Source: a virus
DNA length: 35,150 nt
Reading direction: 5' to 3' (one strand)
IMG/VR virus record: IMGVR_UViG_3300010399_000064
Span: 1-35,150 of that record
Under the pieces are notes generated by a model. The model was not told the origin of the DNA and ran no database searches. It saw only the letters and a program-made list of their open reading frames with translations. A program made the position numbers and the translations under genes. Of the stretch, positions 1,960 to 20,023 are shown piece after piece; position 1 is the stretch's first letter, and every line of letters begins with the position of its first letter.

Positions 1960-2238
1960 GTGGTCACCCTTGACCAGCTCCTCGACAGCGGTGACGATGC
2001 GCAGGACCGGGCCGGCGACACCGGCCGGCGGCTGGCCGCTGCGGTGCGGGCCGGCCTGTGGTGGATCGGCTGGGCGGCGGCGAAGCTGGTCCTGATCGTC
2101 CTGCTCGGCCTGGCGGGCGTCCTCTTCGGCGCCGGCTGGCTGGCCGGTCGGGTCCTGTGGCCGGGTCTGTGCTGGGCCGGCCGGGCGGTGAAGCTCGGCT
2201 ACCAGGAAGGCCGCGGCAGGTCACATGGGCCTGCTTGA
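1960..2238 (+). CDS. Small membrane protein between terminase and portal
   Basis: A 92-residue protein whose middle (about 30-72) is hydrophobic: LWWIGWAAAKLVLIVLLGLAGVLFGAGW, probably one or two membrane segments, flanked by an acidic N-terminus and a basic C-terminus. GTG start with GGAGG at 1946-1950, 9 nt upstream. It overlaps the portal start by 14 nt, so the two are probably translationally coupled. A membrane protein at this position is uncommon in a packaging operon. I do not recognise a family; membrane anchoring of assembly or an infection-time role are possibilities only. Confidence 0.75.
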   Translation: MVTLDQLLDSGDDAQDRAGDTGRRLAAAVRAGLWWIGWAAAKLVLIVLLGLAGVLFGAGWLAGRVLWPGLCWAGRAVKLGYQEGRGRSHGPA

Positions 2239-4864
2239 GCGGATCTCGGCCCGCGGCCGGGATGTGGAGCAGCGCTACGCCGCCGACCAGTGGCTGACCG
2301 ACTTCCTGCGTCCCTCGACGATGGCCTTCGGCGGCCACCAGTACCCGTACGGGCTGACCACCACCTGGGATCAGGGCCGCGTCCGAGAGATCACGAACAC
2401 GCTGCCGGGCTACTCGCAGGCGCTGCGGTTCTGTCCGCCGGCGTTCGCCGCGCAGATGGTGCGGGCCCTGGTCCTCTCGCAGGCCCGGTTCACGTTCCGC
2501 AACCTTCTGTCGTCGCGGACGCCGAGGCGCACGTTCGGTACACAGGCTCTGTCCATCTTGGAGCACCCGGCCCCGTCGGTGACCACCGGTGAGTTGCTGG
2601 CCCGGATGGAGTGGCATGCGGGCCTGGCCGGCAACGCCTACGTGTTGCGCCGCCCGGACCGGCTGCGGGTGCTGCGCCCGGACTGGGTGGCGGTGTTGTT
2701 CGGCTCCCACCAGGAGCCCGAGGATGCCGCGCAGGCCCTCGACGGCGAGCTGATCGGGTTCGTCTACCAGAACGGCGGCTTCTACTCCGGGTACAAGCCG
2801 CAGACGCTGCTCCCGGCTGACGTGGCGCACTGGTGCCCACTGCCCGACCCGGAGCTGTCCCACATCGGCATGTCGTGGATCACCCCGGCGGTTCGGGAGA
2901 TCCAGGCCGACGGGCTGGCCACCGACCACAAGATCCAGTATTTCCGCAACGGCGCCACCCCGAACATGGTCGTGCGCGGCATCACCGCCGCCACCCGCGA
3001 GCAGTTCAACGAGATCGTCGACATCCTCGAACAGCAGCACGCAGGCGTCGCCAACGCCTACAAGACGATGTACCTCACCGCCGGCGCCGACGCCACCGTG
3101 GTCGGCTCCAACCTCGCCGAACTGGACATGAAAGCCGTCCAGGGCGGCGGCGAAACCCGCATCGCGTTCCTGTCCCGCGTCCCCGCCCCACTGCTCGGCA
3201 TCGCCGAAGGACTCGCCGGCTCGTCGCTGAACGCCGGCAACTTCGGGATGGCCCGGCGCATGTTCGCCGACACCTGGGTCTACCCGACCCTGCAGGACCT
3301 CGCCGGGTCCCTGGCCGACATCGTCAAGGTCCCCTCCGATGCCGAACTGTGGTTCGACACCCAGGACATGCCGATCCTGCGTGAGGACGCCAAGGATGCC
3401 GCCGACATCCAGCAGGTGAAGATCGCAGCGATCGCCGCTGCCATCACCGCCGGGTTCGACCCCGACGCCTCGGTTGCTGCCCTGGCCCCCGAACTCGTCG
3501 GCGTCCTCAAGCACACCGGCATGGTCTCCGTGCAGCTGCAGCAGCCAGGCGCCGGACAGGTACCGCCCGGACCGCCCGCAGCGGGTGATGGCGGCGCCCC
3601 GGCGGCGGGTGGTGCGGGCCCAAAAGGGTTGCCCGCTTCGGCGGGCCGGTCCTCGGCCGGGACTGAACGTAAGTTCAACCCCGCCGAACCCCGCGTCCCC
3701 GGCGGTGAGCACGGCGGCGAGTGGAGCGCCGGCGGCGTCATCAAGGACGTTCTGAAACTCGCCGAGAAGATCGACCTCGGCAAGGACGAAAAGCTCATCG
3801 GCTCGGACAAGCTGATTGGCGACGGCGGAGCGGTCCGGCTGGCGCTCGTGGAGCACCACGGTGCGAAGTCCCTGCGCATCGGCATCGGGAGAAGCGACTT
3901 CGGCGGCCGCGACGACGAGGCCGGCCCCTGGAGGGCAGACCCCGGCAAGCTCGCCGCGACAAACGCCGAACGCAAGCGGCTACATGCCGAGATGGACGCC
4001 TTGACGGAGGAGGCGGATCGCCTCGACGCGGATCCGCACGCCGACAAGGCACGCAAGGCCCAGGTCCATGCCCGGCTCGACCAGCTGGGCGACATGGACC
4101 TGGGTGAGCTCACCGCGATCGGTCATACCGCCAACCTCGACGAGGCCTCAGCGCTGCGCCTGCATGCCGCCCTCTCCGACGGAATCGCCTCAGCCGTCAA
4201 GTCGCAGGCCGCCAGTGATCGGACACTCCAACAACTCGACAAGTTGGAAGCCCAACGCAAGCCGTTGCAGTACATGGGCCGCAAGTGGACGCCGGCGGAA
4301 GAGGCGCTCTGGGACGACCTGACGGCGAAGATCGACGCACTGCAGGCCAGGCTCGACGCCGACGACTACGAGATCCATGTCGAAGGCTCGGTGCCTGGCG
4401 AATGGGCCGACGTGCACTACCTGGTAGACCTGGATGACCGCGGCATCGGGCCCAGGGTCACCCTCGGCGCCGTACCGCGTGGCTCGGGCATGAGCCTGGA
4501 CGACCTCGAAGGATCCGAGTCCGCCGCGATGTTCGATGTCGGCGAAGGGCAGAAGTTGGTCCGGCTGCTTGGCCGCTATCTCGGCCCAGCAGATGCCGTG
4601 CGTGCGGCTAGCCCCGCCGGCATCAAGGGCGCACGCCGGTTGCACCAGTACTGGACCAAGGGCGAGGGCCTGGCGAAGTGGGCCGAGTCTCCGCATCCGT
4701 GGACGTCGCTGTATCACCACCTGGTCGAGTTCATGCCGCCGGAGAAGGCCAAGCGCACCGCCGCGGAATGGTTCCACGACGTGTTCCATTTCTGGCCCGG
4801 CAGCGACAAGAACCGCGTGCTTCACGGTAAGCCGCCCCGCGGCGACAAGATCGGCCCCGGCTAG
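2225..4864 (+). CDS. Portal protein with a long C-terminal extension
   Basis: The first ~440 of 879 residues are an HK97-type portal, the dodecameric ring at the capsid vertex through which DNA passes. Supporting stretches are MEWHAGLAGNAYVLRR, IQYFRNGATPNMV and AGSSLNAGNFGMARRMFADTW, as in the clip/stem/wing regions of HK97 portals. A Pro/Gly/Ala linker follows (about 445-480), then a motif RVPGGEHGGEW (about 488-498), an unrecognised region with a Glu/Leu-rich probable coiled coil (about 575-720), and a Trp/His-rich end (ESPHPWTSLYHHLVEFMPP, FHDVFHFWPG). Family members are usually 400-550 residues, so ~380 residues are extra. The C-terminal half may be a fused scaffold, capsid-delivered effector or separate domain; its function is unknown. 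Start ATG 2225 overlaps the upstream gene. Confidence 0.9.
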   Translation: MGLLERISARGRDVEQRYAADQWLTDFLRPSTMAFGGHQYPYGLTTTWDQGRVREITNTLPGYSQALRFCPPAFAAQMVRALVLSQARFTFRNLLSSRTPRRTFGTQALSILEHPAPSVTTGELLARMEWHAGLAGNAYVLRRPDRLRVLRPDWVAVLFGSHQEPEDAAQALDGELIGFVYQNGGFYSGYKPQTLLPADVAHWCPLPDPELSHIGMSWITPAVREIQADGLATDHKIQYFRNGATPNMVVRGITAATREQFNEIVDILEQQHAGVANAYKTMYLTAGADATVVGSNLAELDMKAVQGGGETRIAFLSRVPAPLLGIAEGLAGSSLNAGNFGMARRMFADTWVYPTLQDLAGSLADIVKVPSDAELWFDTQDMPILREDAKDAADIQQVKIAAIAAAITAGFDPDASVAALAPELVGVLKHTGMVSVQLQQPGAGQVPPGPPAAGDGGAPAAGGAGPKGLPASAGRSSAGTERKFNPAEPRVPGGEHGGEWSAGGVIKDVLKLAEKIDLGKDEKLIGSDKLIGDGGAVRLALVEHHGAKSLRIGIGRSDFGGRDDEAGPWRADPGKLAATNAERKRLHAEMDALTEEADRLDADPHADKARKAQVHARLDQLGDMDLGELTAIGHTANLDEASALRLHAALSDGIASAVKSQAASDRTLQQLDKLEAQRKPLQYMGRKWTPAEEALWDDLTAKIDALQARLDADDYEIHVEGSVPGEWADVHYLVDLDDRGIGPRVTLGAVPRGSGMSLDDLEGSESAAMFDVGEGQKLVRLLGRYLGPADAVRAASPAGIKGARRLHQYWTKGEGLAKWAESPHPWTSLYHHLVEFMPPEKAKRTAAEWFHDVFHFWPGSDKNRVLHGKPPRGDKIGPG

Positions 4865-4912
4865 TCCTCTGGCTCCACCCAGCTTCTGAACCCAACGGGA
4901 GGTGTGTGGGCG

Positions 4913-6091
4913 ATGACCCATGTCGTCGATCGGGCCTACAGCTCCGAACTGCACCCGCACGAGCCGGCCGGCTCCTCGCAGGGCGGCCAGTTCGCCCCGG
5001 CCGGTAGCTCGCAGAAGCAGAAGGCCAAGCCGGGCCACCCGGCAGCGCATCAGAAGGCCAAGACCCAGACGCACCAGCATTCGGACACCCTGTCCTACGA
5101 CCCGGACTCCAACCACGGCACGGGCTACGGGATGAAGGGCGGCGACCCGCGGGTCCACAAGCTGCAGCAGGCGCTGAACCGGCTGGGCCTGACCGACGCC
5201 CACGGCAAGGAGCTGGCAGACGACGGCAAGTTGGGCCCGAAGACCACCGCCGCGGTGAAGAAGGCCCAGAAGCGTCTCGGCATGCGCCCAGACGGACACG
5301 TCACCCCGGCCCTGCTCGCCCGCCTCGCCGAGGCCAAATCACTGCCGGGCAGGAGCAGCATCATGATGGACACCTGCCTGCGGGCGTTCGACTTCGACAC
5401 CCGCGCGGTCACCTCGGACGGGCGGACCCTTGAGGGCTACGCGGCCGTGTTCAACACGGCCTCCCGCATCCGGGACCTGCAGGGCGACTTCGACGAGACG
5501 ATCCTGCCGGGCGCGTTCGCCCGCAGCCTGCGCTCCCGCACTCCGGTGCTGCAGTTCGAGCACGGCAAGGACCCTCGTATCGGCGCCGCCCCCATCGGCG
5601 ACATCGAGGAGCTGCGCGAGGACGAGCACGGCCTGTACGTGCGGGCCCGCCTCTACGACCACCCCGACATCGAGCGGGTCCGTCTGGCCATCGCCGGCCG
5701 CTCGATCCGGGGCATGAGCTTCCGGTTCGGCGTCCCCGACAAGGGTGACACCTGGACGCGCCGCGCCGGCGAACCGGACCTCAGGGAGATCCGCGACGCC
5801 GACGTGCACGAGCTCGGCCCGGTCGTGTTCCCCGCCTACGACACCACCAGCGTGTCCGTCCGGTCGCTGCTCGCCCAGCTGGACCCCGACGAACACCGCG
5901 CGCTGGTCCGCGAGCTCGCAGCCGAAGTCCGGCTCGCCGCGGACCTCACAGACCTCAGCGGGCGACCCGACGCGCGGAGCGCGGGTGGCGCTGACCCCGA
6001 CACGGAGCCAGGAAACGGTGCCGCGTCACCAATGCACCTACGCCAACGCCTCGATGACGGCGCCCTACGTACCAGAGGAATCCTGCAGTGA
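4913..6091 (+). CDS. HK97-type prohead protease (peptidase U35) with N-terminal peptidoglycan-binding-like domain
   Basis: The C-terminal part (from about residue 151 of 392) is the capsid maturation serine protease: LEGYAAVFN, DETILPGAFARSL, catalytic His about 217 in LQFEHGKDPRIG, catalytic Ser about 269 in RSIRGMSFRFG. It cleaves the capsid delta domain and scaffold inside the prohead. Ahead of it lie a motif ELHPHEPAGSSQGGQF (about 12-27), a charged linker, and a PG_binding_1-like domain (about 80-128: VHKLQQALNRLGL...DGKLGPKTTAAVKKAQKRLG). ATG 4913 is preferred over GTG 4904 because GGGAGG at 4897-4902 is too close to the GTG. The protein is ~150 residues longer than a typical protease. 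An internal ATG at 5363 has its own ribosome-binding site. The last 4 nt overlap the capsid gene (GTGA, the capsid start is the GTG at 6088). Confidence 0.92.
   Translation: MTHVVDRAYSSELHPHEPAGSSQGGQFAPAGSSQKQKAKPGHPAAHQKAKTQTHQHSDTLSYDPDSNHGTGYGMKGGDPRVHKLQQALNRLGLTDAHGKELADDGKLGPKTTAAVKKAQKRLGMRPDGHVTPALLARLAEAKSLPGRSSIMMDTCLRAFDFDTRAVTSDGRTLEGYAAVFNTASRIRDLQGDFDETILPGAFARSLRSRTPVLQFEHGKDPRIGAAPIGDIEELREDEHGLYVRARLYDHPDIERVRLAIAGRSIRGMSFRFGVPDKGDTWTRRAGEPDLREIRDADVHELGPVVFPAYDTTSVSVRSLLAQLDPDEHRALVRELAAEVRLAADLTDLSGRPDARSAGGADPDTEPGNGAASPMHLRQRLDDGALRTRGILQ
5351..5365 (+). promoter_or_regulatory. Internal ribosome-binding site and ATG inside the protease gene
   Basis: AGGAG at 5351-5355 is followed 7 nt later by ATG at 5363 (with a second ATG at 5366), in frame with the protease gene and exactly at the border between the peptidoglycan-binding-like part and the protease domain. 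Initiation here would give a 242-residue product of the usual size for prohead proteases. Use of this start is an inference from spacing and domain position. Confidence 0.5.
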
Positions 6092-6746
6092 GTATCGACA
6101 TCCTTCCCGAGCTCCGCGACAAGAACCCCGACGACCTGACCAAGGCCATGCCCGACGAGCTGCGCGGCAAGACCCCCGACGAGCTGCAGCGCTACGTCGA
6201 GGTCCTCGACGCGCACCTGCGCTCGATCCACCAGGACGAGAACAGCGGCGAGCTGCGGGACAAGACACCCGACGAGCAGCGGGCCTTCGACTACGGGCTG
6301 AAGCTGCGCGATGCGGCCATCGGCCGAATCGAGGAACACCGGGCCGTACAGCAGGTCTTCGCCCGACGCCCGAAGGCGGTCGAGGCGGCCATGCTGAACC
6401 TGAACACCCGGGACAAGACCGACGCGTTCGGCAACATCCGCCGCATGTCCATCTCGGAGGCCCGCGACCGGGCGCTGCGGGTGTTGGACGACCGCAACGC
6501 CGGAGCGAACCTCAAGCCGGACCAGAAGGACGAGGTCGAGCGGCAGGTCCGCACCTCCACCGATATCGCCCGGCGCGTCCTCGTCACCGAGAACGAGGAC
6601 TACCGCAACGCCTGGCTCAAGCTCGTCACCCGCCCCAACGGGGCGATGTACCTGACCGACGACGAGCGGCACGCCATGATGGCCTGGGACGAGTACCGGA
6701 CCATGTCCGAGGGCACCAACTCGGCCGGCGGCTTCGGAATTCCGGT
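6088..6746 (+). CDS. Major capsid protein, exon 1 (N-terminal delta domain and start of the HK97 fold)
   Basis: Codes for the first 219 residues plus two bases of the next codon of the HK97-fold major capsid protein. The N-terminal ~110 residues are charged and helical (LRDKNPDDLTKAM, ELRGKTPDELQRYVEVL), as expected for a scaffolding delta domain removed by the protease. The region from about 195 (MSEGTNSAGGFGIPV) is the conserved entry to the capsid fold. Read straight through, the frame stops at 6760-6762 after five unrelated codons. The fold resumes at 7716: joining 6746 to 7716 restores the expected GIPVFIDPSII. Exons 1 and 2 total 1500 nt, that is 499 residues and a stop. Start GTG 6088 overlaps the protease stop. 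Confidence 0.92.
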
Positions 6747-7715
6747 CAAGGTGGCCGCCTGACGCCGTGAGGCGTCAGTGAAAAACCCGAGAATTGCTGG
6801 GACATCCCGTTAGACGTCCGCACCACAGCGTGAGACGAAAGCCTGAGCGCGATGGTTCGAGAAGCGGCCGGTAGGGACAATCAGCAGCCGAGCCCGCCTG
6901 GGGAAACCCGACGGGAAGGTTCAACGACCATGTACGGGTTATCTTATTTGACCCACTAGTTGTTCTAGACTCTAGTCTGTGTTCTCAGACAAGAACTGCG
7001 AGATCTGCGGTACCACCTTCACGCCCCGGCGTCGGACCGACCGAACGTGCTGCCTGGACTGCCAGATGCAGCACCGACGAAAGCTCAGCCGAGCGCGCGG
7101 CGCGCGCAACTACAAACCGCGAGCACCGCGACCCGACGTCACCTGCGAAGGCTGTCAGGCATCCGTGCCGACGCCGAAGACCGGACCGAAGCCGAAGTGG
7201 TGCAACGCCTGCCGGGCCACGAAGGAAGACGAGCGCGCACGCAAGCGCATCGCCGTCCGTCGCTGCCACAAGTGCCAGACGCCCGTCCCCGACGCCGAAC
7301 GTAAACCCGGCAAAGCCGTGTGCGACAACTGCCGTGTCGACCCTCGCAAGTACCGCGAGGCACACGAGCACCGGCGACGGCTGAGGAAGTACGGCATCGA
7401 TCAGGAGCGGTACGACCGGATGCTCGCCGAGCAGGACGGTCGCTGCCCTGGATGCCGCACGACCGACCCGGGCGTCAAGGGCTGGTGCATCGACCACTGC
7501 CACGCGACCGGACGTGTCCGCGCGTTGTTGTGCATGCGGTGCAACACCATGATCGGACTGGCCAACGAGGATCCCGCTATCCTCCGGGCGCTCGCAGACC
7601 TCGCAGAACAACTACGGATCGACCGAGATAAAGATATGGTCTGAGCTTCACGGAGACGTGAAGAGGCTGGCAGAAATGACCAGCCCCCTCGGCATGCCGA
7701 GGAGTAACAACACTG
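6747..7715 (+). ncRNA. Group I self-splicing intron in the major capsid gene
   Basis: The 969-nt interruption shows a full group I core. P1: 6743-6746 with 6754-6757, giving U.G at the 5' splice site. P10: 7716-7718 with 6748-6750. P2: 6759-6766 with 6771-6778, GUGA loop. P3: 6784-6789 with 6935-6940. P4: 6795-6799 with 6882-6886. P5: 6805-6808 with 6874-6877. P6: 6887-6889 with 6918-6920, and a P6 extension 6893-6896 with 6912-6915 ending in a GAAA loop at 6903-6906. P7: 6926-6931 with 7636-7641, inside the conserved GGUUCAACGACCA and AAGAUAUGGUCU segments. P8: 6941-6947 with 7628-7635 (one bulge). P9: 7646-7652 with 7657-7663, GAGA loop. Further hairpins lie at 7665-7685 and 7687-7702. The intron begins after U and ends in G (7715), the group I rule, and excision restores the capsid frame. 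Confidence 0.93.
6979..7644 (+). CDS. Intron-encoded HNH homing endonuclease, endonuclease VII-like
   Basis: 221 residues with four Cys pairs-of-pairs that look like stacked zinc ribbons: C7/C10/C25/C28, C56/C59/C75/C78, C96/C99/C115/C118 and C156/C159/C185/C188. The last one encloses the His-Me finger core IDHCHATGRVRALLCMRCN (about 171-189), as in recombination endonuclease VII-type HNH proteins. It lies in the P8 loop of the group I intron, so its probable role is to cut intronless capsid genes and promote intron spread. Its final codons (GAT ATG GTC TGA) also form the 3' strand of P7, so the protein end is constrained by the ribozyme. Start GTG 6979 has no clear ribosome-binding site; the true start is uncertain. 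Confidence 0.9.
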   Translation: MFSDKNCEICGTTFTPRRRTDRTCCLDCQMQHRRKLSRARGARNYKPRAPRPDVTCEGCQASVPTPKTGPKPKWCNACRATKEDERARKRIAVRRCHKCQTPVPDAERKPGKAVCDNCRVDPRKYREAHEHRRRLRKYGIDQERYDRMLAEQDGRCPGCRTTDPGVKGWCIDHCHATGRVRALLCMRCNTMIGLANEDPAILRALADLAEQLRIDRDKDMV

Positions 7716-8556
7716 CTTCATCGATCCTTCGATCATCATGACGGCGCAGGGCTCGGGTAACCCGTTCCTGCAGATCGCCCGCCAGGTCGACGTCAACACC
7801 AACGCCTGGAAGGGCGTCACCAGCGCCGGAGTCACCTGGTCGTTCGACACCGAAAACGTCGAGGTGTCCGATGACTCCCCGACGCTGGCCCAGCCCTCCG
7901 TGACCGTGTTCATGGCCCGCGGGTTCATCCCCTACTCGATCGAGGTCGGCCAGGACTACCCGTCGTTCGCGTCGGAGATGTCCACGCTGCTCGCCGAGGG
8001 CTACGACGAGTTGCTGGTCGACAAGTTCACCCGCGGCTCGGGCACCGGCGAACCGCAGGGCGTGCTGACGATCCTGTCCGCCACCGCCGGCAACCGGGTC
8101 GGCGTGCAGACCTCCGGCGCCAACTTCGGACCGGACGACCCGTACCGGGTGTGGAAGGCGCTGCCGCAGCGGTTCCGCCGCCGGGCGTCGTGGCTGATGT
8201 CGGTCGACGTCAACAACAAGATCCGCCAGATCGGTACGGCGAACGTGTTCCACGCCTACACCGAGAACCTGCCGGCGGAGTGGGCCGACCAGCTCTTCGG
8301 CAAGACCACCTACGAGTCGCCCTACATGCCTGACACGACCACGTCGACGGCGGCCAACAGTGGGCTCGCGGTCGTCGGGGACTTCCAGAACTACCTGATC
8401 GCCCGCCGGGGTGGGATGAGCGTGGAGAACATTCCGCACCTGTTCTCCACCACGACGAACCTGCCCTCGGGCACGCGCGGCTGGTTCGCCTACAGCCGCA
8501 TCGGCGGCGGCGTGGTCAACACGTCCGGCTTCCGGCTGCTCGTAAACACCGCGTGA
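7716..8556 (+). CDS. Major capsid protein, exon 2 (body of the HK97 fold)
   Basis: Continues the capsid protein after splicing: FIDPSIIMTAQGSGNPF and then the HK97-fold core (VDVNTNAWKGV, TVFMARGFIPYSIEVGQDYP, EGYDELLVDKFTRGSGTGEP, DPYRVWKALPQRFRRRASWL) to IGGGVVNTSGFRLLVNTA. The first base completes the Val codon begun in exon 1. An ATG at 7738 could be mistaken for a start, but the preceding seven codons (FIDPSII) are conserved capsid sequence and lie outside the intron. The capsid protein assembles into the icosahedral shell on the portal and scaffold. No lysine/asparagine crosslinking can be judged from sequence alone. Confidence 0.93.
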
Positions 8557-9193: not shown

Positions 9194-10629
9194 CCGGCGC
9201 CGTCGCCGCCGCGTACATCCACACCGATCAGGTCTGGTACTCGTGGCATCATTCGATGCTGCAACTGCTCGACCACGACATGGCCAACCACGCCCGCATC
9301 TGGACCGGCGGATATGTGACGATCCGCTGCGGCACCGGGGACCTGGCCGCCGCGCGCAACACGGCGGTCAGCGAGTTCCTGGCCGAGGCCCGGGCCGACT
9401 GGCTGTGGTGGGTCGACACCGACATGGGATTCGGCGCCGACACCGTCGACCGGCTGGTCGCCGCGGCGGACCCGGTCGAGCGGCCCGTGGTGGGCGCGTT
9501 GTGTTTCGCCAACCGCGAGGTCGACAACGACGGTATGGGTGGCCGCCGCGCACTCGCCGCACCGGTGATCATGTACTGGACCCACGACGGTGAGGAAGCC
9601 GGCTTCGACACCCGCTGGGACTATCCGGCCAACACGGTCGTGCGTTGCGATGGCGTCGGCTCGGCCTGCGTCCTGATCCACCGCTCGGTGTTCGAGCGGG
9701 TCGCAGCCGAGTACGGGCCGAACTGGTACTCGCGGGTTCGTAACCCGTCGACCAACGCGATGGTCGCCGAGGACCTGTCCTTTTGCGCCCGGCTGATGGC
9801 GCTGGGCATTCCGGTGCACGTGCACACCGGAGTGCCGACCACGCACGCCAAGACGATGTGGCTCGGCGAGGAGGACTACTGGCGGCAGCGGGCCCTGAAC
9901 GCCCCGCCACCGGCCCCGGTCGCCGAGGCGCTGGCCCGGCAGGAAAGGACCTGGACGGTCCCGCGGTACGCGATCGTCCCCACCCACAACCGGCCGGCCC
10001 GGCTGCTGGCGCTCGTCGCATCGCTCGGCGGCCAGTGCGATCGCATCGTGGTCCTCGACAACGCGAGCAGCCCGCCGGTCGACGCCGACAAGCTCAGTGC
10101 GGCGGTCCCGGCCGAATGCGTGGTCGAGATCATCCGCGACGAGGAGCAGCCGCCGCACCTGGCCCGCTTCTGGAATGTGATGTTCGACCGCTGCGACGAA
10201 CTGGCTCTCGCTGCCGGCAAGGAAGGCGACCTGTACGACGTCGCCGTCTTCAACGACGATGCGGTCGTTCCTGCGGGCTGGTACGACGCCTGCTCAACCG
10301 GGCTGCGCGCACACCCGACCGCGGTCATCGCCCACACCGGCCCCACCAGCCCGCCGCTGCTGACCGAGCTACACAACGAGCCGGGCAACCGGATGACCCC
10401 GCACGCCTTCGTCATCCGCGGCGAAGCGGGCATGCGCGCCGACGAGGACATGCGCTGGTGGTACTTCGACACCGACCTGGACTGGCGTGCCCGCCAGGCC
10501 GGCGGCGTCCTGTCCGTCCCCGGTCCGCGAGTCGCGAACTCGCTGGCGAACTCGACCACCCACGGGGCGCTCGCCGAGCAGGCCGAGAAGGACCGAGCCA
10601 CATTCGAAGCCAAATGGGCCACGCAGTGA
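9178..10629 (+). CDS. Bifunctional glycosyltransferase (two GT-A domains)
   Basis: 483 residues with two nucleotide-sugar transferase domains. The first (about 1-240) has ARNTAVSEFLAEARADWLWW followed by VDTDMGF, whose DTD is the metal/nucleotide-sugar motif, and VGALCFANRE. The second (about 262-483) begins YAIVPTHNRPARLLALVASLGG and IVVLDNASSP, typical of GT2, with an acidic motif VAVFNDDAVVPAGWYD and WWYFDTDLDWRARQAGG near the catalytic loop. It probably transfers two sugars in succession to a protein or lipid acceptor. It is the first gene of a coupled cassette; the next gene begins inside its stop codon. GTG start at 9178. The acceptor is not shown by sequence; virion proteins are the likeliest target given the position. 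Confidence 0.82.
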   Translation: MSEPSAGAVAAAYIHTDQVWYSWHHSMLQLLDHDMANHARIWTGGYVTIRCGTGDLAAARNTAVSEFLAEARADWLWWVDTDMGFGADTVDRLVAAADPVERPVVGALCFANREVDNDGMGGRRALAAPVIMYWTHDGEEAGFDTRWDYPANTVVRCDGVGSACVLIHRSVFERVAAEYGPNWYSRVRNPSTNAMVAEDLSFCARLMALGIPVHVHTGVPTTHAKTMWLGEEDYWRQRALNAPPPAPVAEALARQERTWTVPRYAIVPTHNRPARLLALVASLGGQCDRIVVLDNASSPPVDADKLSAAVPAECVVEIIRDEEQPPHLARFWNVMFDRCDELALAAGKEGDLYDVAVFNDDAVVPAGWYDACSTGLRAHPTAVIAHTGPTSPPLLTELHNEPGNRMTPHAFVIRGEAGMRADEDMRWWYFDTDLDWRARQAGGVLSVPGPRVANSLANSTTHGALAEQAEKDRATFEAKWATQ

Positions 10630-11240
10630 TCGGCTACGGCTGCTGCGTCGGCTCCTGGGACAAGCTGCGCCGCAACGTCGCACCCCGCACCGTGGATCGC
10701 CCGCTGTTTGCCCTGTCCGGACAGACGCAGCTCACCGCCGCCTACAACGCCATCCTCGACGCCCACCGCGGCCAGGATCGCGACGCCGTGATCCTGCTTC
10801 ACGACGACCTCGACATGTTCGACGCGCAGGCTGAGGAGAAGTTCCTCAGGGCCCTCGCCGAACCGGACGTCGCGCTCGCCGGAGTCTGCGGAGGCAAAGG
10901 GGACGCGACGCTGGCTTGGTGGACGTCGGAGACCGTCGGCCACCAGATGACCGACTCGGGGATGCTCGACTTCGGCACCCGCACCGGCGACGTGGCCTTC
11001 ATCGAGGGCTCGATCATGGTGTTCTCGCCGTGGGCCGTGGAGAACCTGCGCTTCGACGAGCGGTACCCGGGATTCCTCGGCTACGACGACGTCTGCCTGA
11101 CCGCCCGGGCCGCCGGCAAGCGGGTGGTCGTGGCCGACGTGGACACCCACCACCACTCCACGGTCGGGTTCAAATCCAAGGCCATCGCCGCGGCCTGGAA
11201 CGTCGCCGAGGAGATCTTCCAGGAAAAGTGGTCGCGGTGA
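10626..11240 (+). CDS. Glycosyltransferase, GT-A fold
   Basis: 204 residues starting at a GTG that overlaps the previous stop (GTGA), as elsewhere in this cassette; ATG 10614 is an alternative. The core has QTQLTAAYNAILDAH, then AVILLHDDLDMFDA (acidic metal motif), and the acceptor-side motif FDERYPGFLGYDDVCLTARAAG with an invariant-looking acidic pair and HHHSTVGFKS near the end. This matches small bacterial GT-A transferases that act on glycan ends. No membrane segment is present, so it acts in the cytoplasm, presumably on the same acceptor as its neighbours. Confidence 0.78.
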   Translation: MIGYGCCVGSWDKLRRNVAPRTVDRPLFALSGQTQLTAAYNAILDAHRGQDRDAVILLHDDLDMFDAQAEEKFLRALAEPDVALAGVCGGKGDATLAWWTSETVGHQMTDSGMLDFGTRTGDVAFIEGSIMVFSPWAVENLRFDERYPGFLGYDDVCLTARAAGKRVVVADVDTHHHSTVGFKSKAIAAAWNVAEEIFQEKWSR

Positions 11241-19624: not shown

Positions 19625-20023
19625 ATGGCCAGGATCCATGGAAGAAACGGGCGCGTGTACATCGCGTTGACGTCCGGCGGCGTTGCTCAGCCGCTGGCGT
19701 TCCAGGCGAGGTGGTCGATCAGCTTCGCCACCGACAAGGCCGACGTCACGTCCATGGGCGACGGCAACAAGGTCTACGTCTCCGGCCTGCCCGACGCCTC
19801 GGGCCAGTTCTCCGGCTTCTACGACGACGCCACCGTCCAGACCTACACGGCAGCCACCGACGGTGTCTCGCGGGCGTTCTACCTGTACCCGAGCACGCTC
19901 AACACCGGCCAGTACTGGTACGGCCTGGTCCTGCCGGACTTCTCCGTCGACGGCGCGGTGGACGGGCCGGTGGCGGTGTCGGCGTCGTGGAACGCCGCCG
20001 GAGCCATCACCAAGATCGGCTGA
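19625..20023 (+). CDS. Major tail (tube) protein
   Basis: 132 residues; ATG with AGGAGG (19611-19616) 8 nt upstream, the best ribosome-binding site in this region, as expected for an abundant protein. Features FQARWSISFATDKADVTSMGD, VYVSGLPDASGQFSGFYDD and TKIG at the end match small tail-tube proteins that polymerise as hexamer rings around the tape measure. It lies between the tail terminator/GT and the tail chaperones. Confidence 0.82.
   Translation: MARIHGRNGRVYIALTSGGVAQPLAFQARWSISFATDKADVTSMGDGNKVYVSGLPDASGQFSGFYDDATVQTYTAATDGVSRAFYLYPSTLNTGQYWYGLVLPDFSVDGAVDGPVAVSASWNAAGAITKIG

Follow-up and report, generated by a model that had tools for sequence, protein, structure and literature searches.

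The window, that is, the whole stretch of DNA analysed here (35,150 nt; a metagenomic contig of an uncultured virus, IMG/VR record IMGVR_UViG_3300010399_000064), contains a major capsid gene split by a 969-nt group I intron (6747–7715), within which lies a predicted HNH homing endonuclease gene (6979–7644), all on the plus strand. Upstream of these features, a portal protein of 879 aa (2225–4864) showed a portal domain match at residues 106–397 followed by a long C-terminal extension, and the N-terminal part of a prohead protease (4904–6091; Peptidase_S78) was a fused peptidoglycan-binding domain (PG_binding_1, E 1e-12), which is unusual in a protease of capsid maturation. A tRNA search of the window found none.

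Exon 1 of the capsid gene (6088–6746; GTG start) comprises codons 1–219 plus 2 nt of codon 220, and exon 2 (7716–8556) matched PF05065 (Phage_capsid, E 9e-29) and phrog_10 (major head protein), confirming the capsid-gene assignment of the original prediction. Joining 6746 to 7716 yields an HK97-type capsid protein of 499 aa that reads GGFGIPV-FIDPSII across the junction, with codon 220 split as GU|C. The assignment of exon 1 is based on this spliced ORF and on its collinearity with 77 uninterrupted capsid genes. The spliced sequence would be unchanged if both intron ends moved by one base; the boundaries 6747–7715 were therefore chosen by the rule that U precedes the intron (U6746) and G is its last base (G7715).

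The junction was compared with those of 80 related IMG/VR capsid genes, retrieved by the second exon alone. The gene passed uninterrupted through the predicted junction in 77 of them, and inserts were found exactly there in the remaining three (L006, L026 and L038). This comparison with intronless relatives, suggested by the original prediction, upheld its splice sites and frame. Nine further introns occupied the same site (L084, L085, L086, L093, L094, L099, L102, L103 and L105), that of L083 lay 6 nt upstream in the alignment, and those of L087 and L140 lay downstream, at a D|P boundary.

Group I structure of the insert

The group I identity of the insert was assessed using the Rfam model Intron_gpI (RF00028), the junction comparison and covariation among related introns. 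At the default cut-off, Rfam gave no match in the window. A permissive search of the region detected two pieces, at 6732–7002 (24.5 bits, E 7e-4) and 7629–7661 (19.6 bits, E 0.022), both below the curated cut-off of 50 bits. This split into sub-threshold pieces is due to the endonuclease gene inserted between them; the ORF-less introns at the same site (L026, L038, L093, L094, L099, L102 and L103) gave single matches of 67.9–80.4 bits. The covariance-model search envisaged in the original prediction, together with the covariation described below, thus agreed with its group I identification.

An alignment of twelve introns, in which the window was entered without its ORF, supported a structure with 16 helices and 84 pairs. 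In this structure, 95.9% of cells were paired and both sides had changed in 45 of the 84 pairs; none of 500 shuffles was as high, and slid controls were 30%–43% paired. Because both the window and the consensus were in view when the structure was drawn, the double changes carry more weight as evidence than the pairing percentage. By helix, 93% of cells were paired in P3, 95% in P8 and 100% each in P4, P5, P6a and P7, and compensatory changes were seen in P3, P5, P7 and P8. All elements from P1 to P9.2 were present; covariation supported each of them other than P1, which is short, and P4 and P6a, which are invariant. These comparisons, made at the sequence level, establish both the structure and the splice junction.

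P1 (6743–6757) pairs CGGUCA (6743–6748) with UGGCCG (6752–6757) and places U6746.G6754 at the 5′ splice site; in L087 and L140, an exon end CGAU lies opposite intron GUCG in P1. It is followed by the covarying P2 hairpin (6760–6777) and the core (6784–6940), which comprises P3 (6784–6789/6935–6940) and P4 (6795–6800/6881–6886) and, within 6805–6930, P5 with its P5a–c extension (6805–6877), P6a/P6b (6893–6915) and the 5′ strand of P7 (GACCA, 6926–6930). The latter pairs with the 3′ strand UGGUC (7637–7641), with a C-G to U-A exchange in relatives. P8 (6941–7629; strands 6941–6945/7625–7629) holds the endonuclease gene in its loop, and the P9 domain (7646–7702) consists of P9 (7646–7663), P9.1 (7665–7685) and P9.2 (7687–7702); in this domain, relatives show double changes in 16 of the 20 pairs. 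Thus, among the helices initially proposed, P1, P2 and P3–P9 stood. P10 was not established, since its three possible pairs in the window, AAG (6748–6750) with CUU (7716–7718), were not kept in L026, L083 and L084 when compared by eye. Minimum-energy folding alone (z −3.6) did not recover the full pseudoknotted core.

Early stop codon and endonuclease gene

The first triplet of P2 in the window, UGA (6760–6762), is a stop codon in the frame of exon 1. An in-frame stop was found within the first 27 intron nt in all 22 introns examined, which are related and represent about seven independent cases, counted as sites. In 19 of the 22, the stop (UGA or UAG) opened P2 as its first triplet, preceded by one further C-G pair, and lay opposite UCA or CUA on the partner strand, with one mismatch (L083), and UGA/UAG exchange was accompanied by a compensatory change on the partner strand. 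The stop began at intron nt 14 or 17 in phase 2, at nt 10, 13 or 16 in phase 0 and at nt 12 in phase 1, and was therefore in frame for all three insertion phases. The exceptions were the first intron of L100 (L100a), where the opening triplet of P2 is UGC and a stop already occurs at nt 2, and L128b and L153, where the stop lies deeper in P2. In-frame stops are known in many group I introns, as noted in passages of PMC3984707; no description of a stop fixed in a covarying helix and tracking the phase was found in the literature. The P2 stop codon provides a concrete, testable tie between translation and ribozyme folding.

The endonuclease gene encodes 221 aa from a GTG start to a TGA stop and contains an intact PF02945 domain (Endonuclease_7, E 4e-20). 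It lies in the peripheral loop of P8, and its TGA lies directly 3′ of the P7 3′ strand, so that its last codons also encode the sequence of P8, J8/7 and P7. Relatives of this endonuclease were found in eight introns, including that of the window. For seven of these eight ORFs, a GTG start is possible 6–9 nt after a TANACT-like hexamer, with no visible Shine–Dalgarno sequence; in the window the hexamer, a candidate −10 element, is TAGACT (6966–6971), and siblings have TATACT, TACACT or TGTACT-like versions. The endonuclease is possibly made from a leaderless transcript.

Both L026 and L102 had kept C-terminal endonuclease remnants in the P8 loop, which evidently represent ORF decay. Furthermore, six loci with intron-less capsid genes (L005, L011, L018, L043, L048 and L064) carried a free-standing Endonuclease VII-type gene starting 31–99 nt after the capsid gene. 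In L099, on the reverse strand, an ORF-less capsid intron is located at ~5339–5634, and a free-standing Endonuclease VII-type gene directly follows the capsid gene (region from ~6470). Such arrangements, with putative cutting of the intron site, would be expected under collaborative homing, an idea described in part of PMC2988022.

The intron lineage and known systems

The lineage was sought in two scans, one for an exact core pattern of 23 bases, which took no account of the host gene, and one for a relaxed core pattern, from which members were taken among the matches listed. Both were scored with a sequence profile (nhmmer) of the core, built from an alignment of 460 columns. Complete members scored 133–194 bits, and the next introns scored 75 bits or less. 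At least 27 non-redundant members were identified, and among the matches listed, 26 of 27 interrupted a capsid or capsid-like gene; these occupied at least seven insertion sites in three capsid families, with up to two introns per gene. Of these 27 listed members, 16 interrupted the same type of capsid gene as in the window and seven a phrog_1357-type major head gene, that of Streptomyces L107 among them; three lay in a capsid-like gene (L096 twice, L158) placed by resemblance and context alone. The capsid-like gene belongs to phrog_13692, which has no assigned function, and a Pfam search of it returned no helpful match. The one listed non-capsid member (L156, around 1494) lay in a gene similar to the one for the window's tail tube protein (19625–20023). 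Two introns in one phrog_1357-type gene were found in L100 and L128, and L111, a Streptomyces rimosus prophage with two introns, duplicates L100. The lineage of the window intron would accordingly appear to occur almost only in viral capsid genes.

Several loci showed further features. The two introns of L100 lie at 9727–10023 and 10826–11116; an opposite-strand ORF, like that of mycobacteriophage LittleE, is apparently present in the second L096 intron; and one intron each of L106 and L111 is cut off at the locus start. In addition, a group I core was located near a tRNA-like sequence in L110 (~750–815), a Candidatus Taylorbacteria MAG, with the P4–P6 motif in common.

Among 58 listed fragments downstream of other relaxed-core phage introns, a set in which any redundancy was retained, major-head families were the commonest match (10 to phrog_267 alone), and this lineage may not be the only one with a preference for capsid genes. 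A DNA search of a phage collection returned short matches to intron parts alone and none at the window's site in a sequenced isolate, and no description of the lineage was found in the literature (open-licence papers). The introns could represent an actinophage lineage specialised for capsid genes, with a stop built into P2 and a P1 loop whose length follows the insertion phase, such that translation of exon 1 would always end at the edge of the ribozyme; we regard this broader reading as evenly poised. The capsid preference and the phase-tracking P2 stop would form a pattern at the level of the lineage.

A group I intron in a capsid gene is already precedented by LittleE, in which splicing was shown by RT-PCR and N-terminal sequencing (PMC3706429), and the window adds a further member. 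Both introns carry an endonuclease ORF, occur in actinobacterial phages and interrupt the major capsid gene within one conserved stretch, immediately past the prohead cleavage site (LittleE, GG|YAVP; window, GGFGIPV|FIDP). They share a related P9 domain (34.5 bits to the lineage profile) and a GAGTAACA-like 3′ end. LittleE also has an early in-frame stop, although it is located in the P2 loop. In contrast to the window, LittleE splices ~14 nt further upstream in the alignment, its 5′ domain is unmatched by the lineage profile, its P5 looks short on visual inspection, and a LAGLIDADG/I-CreI-like endonuclease has been reported on its opposite strand, whereas that of the window is Endonuclease VII-type and on the same strand.

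More distant parallels were found in other phages. According to parts of PMC2988022, the T4 td intron with I-TevI likewise has its endonuclease ORF in a peripheral loop, with the 3′ end extending into the core of the ribozyme, and early in-frame stops are known in introns of this type (portions of PMC2988022 and PMC3984707); however, the host gene and endonuclease class differ, and the same portions describe no stop built into a covarying P2. F-CphI of cyanophage S-PM2 is a homing endonuclease with the Endonuclease VII catalytic motif, but it is free-standing, while that of the window is encoded within the intron (PMC6083498). Lactococcal phage Tuc2009, a phage of low-GC bacteria, has a capsid subunit gene with a group I intron, as cited in PMC3706429; this likeness is by description.

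Splicing, mobility and alternative explanations

The insert is very probably a mobile group I intron with an Endonuclease VII-type HNH homing endonuclease, carried by an actinobacterial phage in its major capsid gene. The ribozyme would excise itself from the capsid mRNA by two transesterifications that use the U.G pair of P1 and a guanosine occupying the P7 site; excision would restore codon 220. Ribosomes translating exon 1 would halt at the UGA opening P2 and so be kept off the catalytic core. The endonuclease in the P8 loop would cut the intron-less capsid genes of co-infecting phages at a conserved site, leading to spread of the intron. Since both exons are intact, the core is conserved and the relative in LittleE has been spliced experimentally, it is a sound inference that the intron is active, as originally proposed; the mobility of the intron, the ORF for an endonuclease within the P8 loop and the precedent of phage capsid-gene introns go beyond that proposal. 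A capsid gene requires very high expression, and thus every virion would depend on efficient ribozyme action.

Two alternatives concern the removal of the insert. The two mismatches in the P5 extension (one A-C in P5c and one U-C in P5a) might indicate a decayed or poorly splicing intron in a broken or weakly expressed capsid gene, e.g., of a defective prophage. This is very improbable given that every core helix is intact and conserved, the G-site helix P7 included, and that both exons are open and collinear with their relatives. The insert length is divisible by three, and exon 1, the endonuclease ORF and exon 2 share one frame, as might be expected if the insert were handled otherwise; such a reading is scarcely credible. 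An intein is excluded by the in-frame stops and a group II intron by the covarying group I structure and Rfam identity, and translational bypassing would leave the conservation of the ribozyme unexplained.

A further alternative accepts splicing and holds that the endonuclease is inactive and the intron now inherited vertically with the capsid gene. The rarity of the intron (3 of 80 related capsid genes) is in line with this, which we nevertheless consider unlikely. The endonuclease domain is intact, and identity of the 5′ core was uncorrelated with that of the second capsid exon among 14 introns (Spearman rho 0.05, p 0.67); between the window and L087, for example, the intron core was 86% identical and the capsid 35% identical. 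Moreover, the same intron was found at three nearby sites in the window's capsid family and also in other capsid families. Because intron similarity does not follow capsid similarity, these comparisons demonstrate horizontal movement of the intron: empty sites exist (77 of 80 relatives), and its history differs from that of the host gene.

The mobile intron and its relatives present a natural series in one small stretch of one gene, from an empty site, an empty site followed closely by a free-standing endonuclease, an ORF-less intron and an ORF-less intron with a neighbouring endonuclease to an intron with an ORF and one with a decayed ORF. The proposed routes of intron and endonuclease combination and decay would thereby become testable. 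In practical terms, gene callers split the capsid genes of such phages, and introns with long inserted genes escape Rfam's default cut-off.
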